Origin: a bacterium
GTDB taxonomy: Bacteria; CLD3; SB21
Assembly (NCBI GenBank): GCA_016787925.1
Contig: JAEUSK010000161.1
Location: 1 to 42,239 of the forward strand
Length of the DNA stretch: 42,239 nt
Reading direction: 5' to 3'
Part shown: positions 31,513 to 34,085 of the stretch, piece after piece
How the letters are laid out: each line of letters opens with the position of its first letter
Numbering within the stretch: the first letter of the stretch is position 1
The notes under the pieces: generated by a model
What the model was told of the DNA's origin: nothing
Seen by the model: only the letters and a program-made list of their open reading frames with translations
Database searches by the model: none
Position numbers and translations under genes: made by a program

Positions 31513-31534
31513 CGAGCCCGCTGAAATTTATGTT

Positions 31535-31608
31535 CGGGGCGTAGCGCAGCCCGGTAGCGCGCCTGTTTTGGGAGCAGGATGTCGGAGGTTCAAATCCTCT
31601 CGCCCCGA
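31535..31608 (+). tRNA. tRNA-Pro (anticodon TGG)
   Basis: A 74-base cloverleaf can be drawn. The acceptor stem is CGGGGCG (31535-31541) with CGCCCCG (31601-31607) and discriminator A. The D arm is GCGC/GCGC, the anticodon arm CCTGT/GCAGG with loop TTTGGGA (anticodon 31569-31571), and the T arm GGAGG/CCTCT with TTCAAAT. The following bases are CCC, so the CCA tail is probably added after transcription. A strong promoter precedes it and a strong terminator follows. Its 3' end is copied downstream, beyond a GIY-YIG element. Confidence 0.96.
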
Positions 31609-31625
31609 CCCAATAAGACCCTCTG
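31600..31625 (+). repeat. Left direct repeat: tRNA 3' end plus start of terminator
   Basis: The 26 bases at 31600-31625 are identical to 31934-31959. They include the 3' acceptor strand of tRNA-Pro, the discriminator base and the first half of the terminator stem. This is the usual form of an attachment-site duplication at a tRNA gene. Confidence 0.9.
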
Positions 31626-31643
31626 GTTAACCAGAGGGTTTTT
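31619..31643 (+). terminator. tRNA-Pro terminator
   Basis: A perfect palindrome, CCCTCTGGTT with AACCAGAGGG (31619-31638), is followed by five T. It closes the tRNA transcript. Confidence 0.92.
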
Positions 31644-31658
31644 GATTTAGGGCAAAGG

Positions 31659-31908
31659 ATGATCTACTACGTATACATTCAGTTCTCTGTTGGGTAAGTA
31701 TTATGTGGGCTATACACATGAACTGGATAAACGTATAAAAGGTAACAACATGGGATTAAGTCGATATATTAAGAGCGGATTGCCATGGGAGTTAGTCAAG
31801 TATTTCGAGAGTGTATCGAAATCTAAAGCAATTGAATTGGAAACAAAGATTAAGAAACGAGGGATCAGAAGATTTTTGAATGATCTTGAAACCATGAAAC
31901 ACGGCTAG
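31659..31908 (+). pseudogene. GIY-YIG endonuclease, frame-disrupted near its N-terminus
   Basis: The GIY-YIG domain is split over two frames. ATG at 31659 gives MIYYVYIQFSVG and then stops at TAA. The rest of the domain is in the +1 frame from TTG at 31690: GKYYVGYTHELDKRIKG, then GLSRYIKSGLPWELVKYF and AIELETKIKKRGI (Glu is the metal ligand). Joined, they give a typical 80-aa single-domain GIY-YIG protein of the UPF0213 kind. The break lies at about 31683-31692 and needs a one-base change to restore. It could be a true inactivating mutation, an assembly error or programmed frameshifting. AAAGG upstream of ATG 31659 supports that start. Confidence 0.82.
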
Positions 31909-31933
31909 CGCGTGGTCCCGCCACAAAGCGGGA

Positions 31934-31959
31934 TCGCCCCGACCCAATAAGACCCTCTG
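31934..31959 (+). repeat. Right direct repeat: second copy of the tRNA 3' end
   Basis: This is identical to 31600-31625 over 26 bases. Beyond it the similarity continues through the terminator with a few changes. There is no second tRNA body upstream, so this is not a tandem tRNA gene. Confidence 0.9.
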
Positions 31960-31977
31960 AGTAATCAGAGGGTCTTT
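31951..31977 (+). terminator. Duplicated terminator after the GIY-YIG element
   Basis: A perfect 10-bp stem, GACCCTCTGA (31951-31960) with TCAGAGGGTC (31965-31974), has loop GTAA and a short T run. Relative to the tRNA terminator, a G-C pair has become A-T by changes on both arms, so pairing is kept. Confidence 0.85.
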
Positions 31978-32049
31978 GATTTTACCTCAAGTTTCGTATA
32001 TTATTGCATCACTTAGTGCCTATCATAAAATTCAGCCAATCTCATAGAG

Positions 32050-33956: not shown

Positions 33957-34055
33957 AGCCCGAGCCTTACGCAATTTGAGACAGCTGAACCCCGCCAGGT
34001 CCGGAAGGAAGCAACGGTAGGCTATTCTTGGATGTGCTGTAACAAGCTTGGGCTT
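33957..34055 (+). ncRNA. ffs: Bacterial small signal recognition particle RNA (4.5S type)
   Basis: The region contains the diagnostic SRP helix 8 sequence CCAGGTCCGGAAGGAAGCA (about 33995-34013), with the GGAA tetraloop and the asymmetric internal loop bound by Ffh. The ends pair: AGCCCGAGC at 33957 with GCTTGGGCT ending at 34054. The closing stem is followed by an eight-T run that acts as terminator. The length of about 98 bases fits the small bacterial form without an Alu domain. It lies directly before dnaX, as in many bacteria. Confidence 0.95.
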
Positions 34056-34085
34056 TTTTTTCTTCCACTCTAAATAAAAATTTTC

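Follow-up and report, generated by a model that had tools for sequence, protein, structure and literature searches.

A putative minimal GIY-YIG nuclease element of about 330 bp inserted at a bacterial tRNA-Pro gene, and its relatives at other tRNA genes

In the stretch of bacterial DNA analysed here (42,239 nucleotides at its full length; hereafter, the window), a tRNA-Pro gene is followed by about 330 bp that are best described as a minimal mobile element, composed of one GIY-YIG nuclease of about 80 residues plus a piece of the target tRNA, and apparently a member of a widespread family. The reading that we consider probable is that of an integrase-free GIY-YIG mobile element which inserts by means of tRNA homology, probably through nuclease-induced recombination, and leaves an intact tRNA behind. 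Its recurrence at many kinds of tRNA in distant bacteria suggests that such extremely small mobile elements form a family that has drawn little notice.

The tRNA-Pro locus

The following features can be differentiated at the locus, all of them on the forward strand:

31534 to 31612: intact tRNA-Pro (anticodon TGG) on the left side of the element (ARAGORN; Rfam tRNA, 65 bits)
31600 to 31648: proximal repeat copy (acceptor 3' strand and terminator)
31615 to 31642: proximal inverted repeat resembling an intrinsic terminator, in its CTCTGG-TTAA-CCAGAG version, different from the terminator of genomes G001 and G002
31659 to 31908: GIY-YIG nuclease coding region of about 83 codons, frameshifted, with a nearly invariant His changed to Asn
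31902 to 31912: D-arm remnant of a pseudo-tRNA-Pro, CGGCTAGCGCG (compare CGGTAGCGCG in the tRNA), in a layout also found at other loci
31916 to 31933: GC hairpin TCCCGC-CACAAA-GCGGGA, which takes the place of the anticodon arm and the T arm in the pseudo-tRNA; comparable hairpins occur at homologous elements
31934 to 31982: distal repeat copy (acceptor 3' strand and native terminator, the latter matching G001 and G002)
31949 to 31976: inverted repeat of the native terminator, AAGACCCTCTGA/TCAGAGGGTCTT

The two repeat copies (31600-31648 versus 31934-31982) are 49 nt long and 92% identical, with a spacing of 334, and their first 26 nt are identical. The 26-base repeat that the original prediction had noticed at the 3' end of tRNA-Pro is, hence, real, its true extent being longer. 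The local alignment score of the repeat was 37, against a maximum of 18 in a control of 300 mismatched upstream and downstream pairs from unrelated loci, and a pure chance repeat was therefore ruled out. Neither a tyrosine nor a serine recombinase is present in the insert of about 334 bp, whose sole coding content is the GIY-YIG region; the claim that no integrase is involved thus holds for the insert itself, the extra DNA beyond the tRNA amounting to about 334 bp in total with respect to the sister genomes. A group I intron was also discarded, as an Rfam scan of the window returned tRNA and SRP RNA only. The latter is a bacterial small SRP RNA at positions 33958-34056 of the forward strand.

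The coding region can be recognised as GIY-YIG (PF01541, 6.5e-11, two frames joined) and is split over two frames: (i) the ATG at 31659 reads MIYYVYIQFSVG and then a stop (it starts MIYYVYI); and (ii) the remainder of the nuclease (LLGKYYVGYT...) occupies the other open frame, at 31690-31908. Its TAG stop is supplied by the D-arm remnant of the pseudo-tRNA-Pro. The conserved catalytic residues expected of a homing nuclease are retained by the family and impaired in the window copy (frameshift, His to Asn). Because of these two changes, the nuclease of the window is probably inactive and this copy of the element probably decayed; the frameshift may also be an assembly error.

Ahead of the distal copy, the order is CGGCTAGCGCG-TGG-[TCCCGC CACAAA GCGGGA]-TCGCCCCGACCCA, that is to say, D-arm piece, GC hairpin and acceptor 3' strand. 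The far end of the element thus reads as a truncated pseudo-tRNA-Pro with a GC hairpin instead of its internal arms. The short hairpin initially described between the repeats does exist, but it forms part of this truncated pseudo-tRNA, whose internal arms it replaces.

Comparison with sister genomes

In two genomes of the same genus (G001 and G002), with synteny on both flanks, tRNA-Pro runs directly into a single terminator and then into the same downstream gene. The comparison with empty tRNA-Pro sites that had been proposed at the outset therefore yields two genomes without the 3' insert, each with one tail-plus-terminator, and their uninterrupted 3' side bears out the prediction of an integrase-free insert of about 334 bp made up of a GIY-YIG region and pieces of tRNA and terminator. 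The tRNA-Pro of the window is identical to that of G001 and differs from that of G002 by one base at the 3' end. As for the terminators, that of G001 and G002, CTCTGAGTAATCAGAGGGTCTTTGATTTT, is the one found in the distal copy of the window, while the proximal one, CTCTGGTTAACCAGAGGGTTTTTGATTT, differs from it, including both sides of a stem pair. Since the distal terminator matches the relatives and the proximal one differs, the native tail was pushed to the far side of the insert; the terminator at the proximal copy is probably element-borne (or altered later); this assignment is based on the terminators, the 3' end of the tRNA being too conserved to discriminate. The original idea of a plain target-site duplication was abandoned: the two terminators differ, the distal one, which matches the relatives, belongs to the native copy, and the proximal one probably came with the element.

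The same tRNA gene bears a different insert in the sister genomes. On its 5' side, G001 reads TTATGTTCGGGGCGTAG-[TCCCGACTTTCGTCGGGA]-about 100 bp-TATATGTTCGGGGCGTAGC, and G002 likewise, with small differences. This 5' insert (L040 and L041; G001:C88 and G002:C37) is ORF-less, about 100-120 bp long and missing from the window genome, and it consists of a truncated 5' copy of tRNA-Pro, a hairpin TCCCG...CGGGA and a second tRNA start. With the 3' insert of the window and the 5' insert of G001 and G002, sister species thus carry insertions on opposite sides of the same tRNA-Pro.

Other occupied and empty sites

Close relatives that differ in having an occupied or an empty allele at a given site were found for the 3' side of tRNA-Pro, for tRNA-Ala and, in the Cloacimonadota, for tRNA-Asp. 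At tRNA-Ala, in an independent case within the genus of the window, G001 has two tandem units of about 313 bp each, with an ORF followed by GGAGAGCG-hairpin-AGGTCGTCAGTTCGATCCTGATCAGCTCCAC, and the site is empty in G000 and G002, where the tRNA sequence is identical to that of the occupied G001; no terminator copy is present in these units for a comparison of foreign and native ends. At tRNA-Asp, one genome of the Cloacimonadota is occupied (L050) and a syntenic one (G429) is uninterrupted. The occupied locus also has a hairpin-bearing 5' copy upstream of tRNA-Asp and, with disrupted copies both upstream and downstream, a whole working tRNA-Asp stands between two disrupted halves. At occupied sites, the intact tRNA has the sequence of the empty site and it is the truncated copy that is disrupted by the hairpin.

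Units without an ORF are also present. In the window genome, tRNA-Val, one tRNA-Arg, tRNA-Tyr and tRNA-Leu are accompanied by truncated copies of themselves with hairpins and no recognised ORF. On the 5' side of tRNA-Val (L233; G000:C135), a 99-bp ORF-less unit has 26 nt copied from the 5' end of tRNA-Val, followed by TCCCGCCGGGGCGGGA; this insert is found in G000, apparently in G001, and is absent in G002. Downstream of tRNA-Tyr (L231) and tRNA-Leu (L266) of the window genome, a common double hairpin, TTCTGCGCCANAGGCGCATCAGCCTNTGGCTG, lies inside the copied tRNA 3' end and recalls mitochondrial double-hairpin elements; comparable stretches (TTCTGCG...) come after the ORF at tRNA-Ser in family genomes (L079, L158). 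Most of the genomes are draft or metagenome assemblies, in which identical repeats close to one another are easily misassembled.

The homologue family and its association with tRNA genes

Homologues were gathered by protein similarity alone, and the examination covered 138 distinct ones. The search profile drew largely on tRNA-adjacent members, and the score bands, distance cut-offs and hairpin rule were set while viewing the data; in consequence, the percentages describe the subfamily and not GIY-YIG proteins at large. Within this subfamily, 53 of the 67 homologues that score 70 or more have a tRNA gene within 200 bp, nearly always on the same strand (52 of 53), and the density of tRNA genes is 1.63 per kb within 200 bp versus 0.043 beyond 400 bp (about 38 times). 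The remaining 14 of the 67, with no tRNA detected within 200 bp, count against our preferred reading. Lower-scoring homologues are mostly not beside tRNA genes.

About 18 tRNA isotypes are found next to homologues, with the tRNA either upstream or downstream of the ORF. Besides, three further GIY-YIG loci (L109, L164, L098) are located on the 3' side of tmRNA, on the same strand. A strong flanking repeat is present in 48 of the 75 tRNA-adjacent loci and overlaps the tRNA in 33 of the 75, with a spacing of such overlapping repeats of 313-457 bp (median 346) on the 3' side and of 295-477 bp (median 332) on the 5' side. On the far side, 41 loci show a recognisable tRNA fragment 15 nt or more in length. 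The family can thus be described as units of about 300-480 bp that carry repeats of a tRNA end and, in many cases, a piece of tRNA bearing a hairpin; ORF-less versions occur as well. Regarding the claim that tRNA 3' ends are the target, the nearest relatives of the nuclease do lie at tRNA genes with copied ends, but 5' ends are used as well.

A GC hairpin abuts the tRNA fragment in 28 of the 41 loci, any such hairpin being found in 25 of 135 control stretches. Judged by eye, the anticodon arm is the one replaced most often, and the T or D arm less often. In the tRNA-Asp elements of Cloacimonadota and Melioribacter-type genomes, the hairpin sits at the identical point of the T arm, AGGTCG[hairpin]AGTCYCGT. 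Hairpin stems and loops vary from locus to locus. In 15 of 75 tRNA-adjacent ORFs, versus 3 of 49 other ORFs, the TAG stop comes from a GGNTAG-like D-loop belonging to the tRNA or pseudo-tRNA; examples are L062, L075, L092, L094, L120 and the window.

The nuclease alignment has ten invariant columns, with Tyr, Gly, Arg and Glu invariant and His nearly so. By comparison of profiles with solved structures, the closest GIY-YIG domains are of UPF0213/YhbQ type (1zg2, 9.7e-17; 1ywl) and SLX1 (3.9e-9), I-TevI being at E=0.07. No named family was returned for the nuclease in NCBIfam. A phage or plasmid origin was rejected, since almost no homologues exist in phage and plasmid records (only 4 phage records and one plasmid-collection record match).

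Across families, related nucleases tend to be found at the same tRNA isotype. When each nuclease is compared with its nearest counterpart from another family, the two share the isotype in 30 of 77 cases, whereas 2000 label shuffles gave 6 on average and 16 at most; similarly, 43 isotype changes are counted on the nuclease tree versus a minimum of 51 in 300 shuffles. The tree is weakly resolved, its support being low because the alignment has only 81 columns, so that the isotype result relies on the shuffle tests and not on single branches. This fidelity fits a sequence-specific nuclease and, equally, homology through the carried tRNA piece alone.

Proposed mechanism and alternative explanations

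The sequence comparisons described above show an insertion, a restored tRNA, a native copy at the distal side and an element-like recurrence; as to the driver of movement, we infer that it is the nuclease. The nuclease would cut the uninserted target tRNA gene, or else the hairpin copy. Homologous repair of the break from a copy that bears the element, or from a circle formed by recombination between the repeats, would then copy the element in at the tRNA sequence common to element and target. With the tRNA end that it brings along, the element would complete the tRNA on one side, so that the host would retain a working tRNA, and the displaced native end would stay joined to the hairpin on the other side. 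Truncation and hairpin would probably protect the spare copy from being cut, prevent it from working as a tRNA, or do both. The predicted order is native tRNA, core, foreign terminator, ORF, D-arm, hairpin, core and native terminator; donor-templated repair, or a single crossover with a circle, would exactly reproduce the order of the window.

Some observations count against a homing nuclease: the intact tRNA at occupied sites is the same as the empty target and yet it is spared, and the protein is closer to UPF0213/SLX1 structures than to the homing nuclease I-TevI. The frameshift in the window ORF also counts against the preferred reading. So does the finding that ORF-less inserts with the same hairpin layout likewise vary between sister species, for which the nuclease would not have to be present in cis.

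The likeness to UPF0213 (1zg2, 1ywl) and SLX1 structures, together with the distant match to I-TevI, is what gives weight to a structure-driven alternative that we judge unlikely: the nuclease would cut not the target but the pseudo-tRNA, at its GC hairpin or at branched DNA there, and the freed tRNA-like ends would recombine into the same kind of tRNA, isotype fidelity arising from the carried tRNA homology only, with no nuclease specificity. Such an activity would suit the hairpin found at the truncated copy in most loci with a recognisable copy, and the variation of ORF-less hairpin units between sister species suggests that the hairpin unit may be the mobile part. Nevertheless, hairpin stems and loops differ among loci, with no conserved cleavage sequence established; likeness to a structural family does not establish the substrate; and the GIY-YIG nuclease SegB cuts tRNA genes by sequence (PMC13096335, excerpts).

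Two further explanations treat the GIY-YIG gene as a bystander. In one of them, very improbable in our judgement, the unit is what is left of a tRNA-site integrative element or prophage that lost its tyrosine integrase, the GIY-YIG gene being a passenger. Restoration of a tRNA 3' end with a core repeat is indeed typical of integrases, and a proximal element-derived copy plus a distal native one resembles an attL/attR layout; decay would, however, have to account for a unit size that stays tightly within 295-477 bp across many bacterial families and isotypes, always with the same type of nuclease, as well as for the use of 5' ends, the tandem units and phage and plasmid records nearly devoid of homologues. 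The other, to which we give little credence, is a local tandem duplication of a partial tRNA gene, later joined by an unrelated GIY-YIG gene and hairpin repeats. A proximal terminator unlike the native one would require a later change after a fresh duplication, and the nuclease is strongly tied to same-strand tRNA genes, with a phylogeny that follows isotype; the ORF-less truncated copies with hairpins at Val, Arg, Tyr and Leu of the same genome speak in its favour.

Relation to known systems

Fungal mitochondrial mORFs (Allomyces atp6; Glomus atp6, atp9, cox2 and nad3) are free-standing LAGLIDADG or GIY-YIG homing-type nucleases that arrive with a foreign gene 3' end which completes the host gene; the displaced native 3' end remains beyond the ORF, the proximal copy being foreign and the distal one matching close relatives (PMC3630166, excerpts). 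The element of the window shares this arrangement of proximal foreign and distal native ends, as judged from its terminators against those of G001 and G002. In contrast, mORFs are found at protein genes of mitochondria and have nuclease ORFs that range from several hundred to about 1000 bp, and for none of them do the excerpts used here describe tRNA targets, a hairpin-bearing truncated copy or gene 5' ends (PMC3630166), while the family presented here targets bacterial tRNA (and some tmRNA) genes with a unit of about 330 bp.

SegB of phages T4/T6, a GIY-YIG homing endonuclease enriched beside tRNAs of many isotypes, cuts within tRNA genes at the motif RAWTSGAAC, which is the T-loop complement, and promotes tandem amplification of tRNA DNA by recombination (PMC13096335, excerpts). 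It has in common with this family a GIY-YIG nuclease and an association with tRNA genes, a likeness that, in sequence, is established for the GIY-YIG domain only. But SegB is phage-borne and tied to tRNA arrays within 1 kb, and the excerpts of that source do not describe it as a unit of about 330 bp with a truncated hairpin-bearing tRNA copy (PMC13096335).

Elements that integrate at tRNA sites by means of a tyrosine integrase also rebuild the end of the tRNA by way of a short, identical core repeat; the family described here differs in having no integrase, a unit of about 330 bp and the use of either tRNA end. Classic landing sites for integrase-driven islands are tRNA 3' ends. A literature search of limited journal coverage, and hence weak as evidence, found no description of hairpin-bearing, tRNA-inserted GIY-YIG units of about 330 bp among the titles and abstracts that it listed.

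If the preferred reading is true, a nuclease-only element of about 330 bp using both tRNA ends would be a different, far smaller solution than integrase islands, as well as a bacterial chromosomal counterpart of fungal mORFs and phage SegB. It would explain the frequent placement of small GIY-YIG genes of this type beside bacterial tRNA genes, and would provide a source of very compact nucleases with predictable tRNA-gene targets. More tentatively, these units may constitute a distinct class of elements in which a hairpin-substituted tRNA mimic acts as element end, homology arm and self-protection. They would then be among the smallest self-mobilising elements (about 300-350 bp, with an 80-residue nuclease), able to use either end of nearly any tRNA gene, and also tmRNA, and accompanied by ORF-less dependents moved in trans.

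Finally, at one locus (L119; G388:C82) the GIY-YIG ORF adjoins a 135-nt repeat that includes the start of an apparent epimerase-type gene, which suggests that protein genes may be possible targets too. At another (L148), a group I intron (Rfam, 83.8 bits) is located near a GIY-YIG ORF and tRNA-like sequence.
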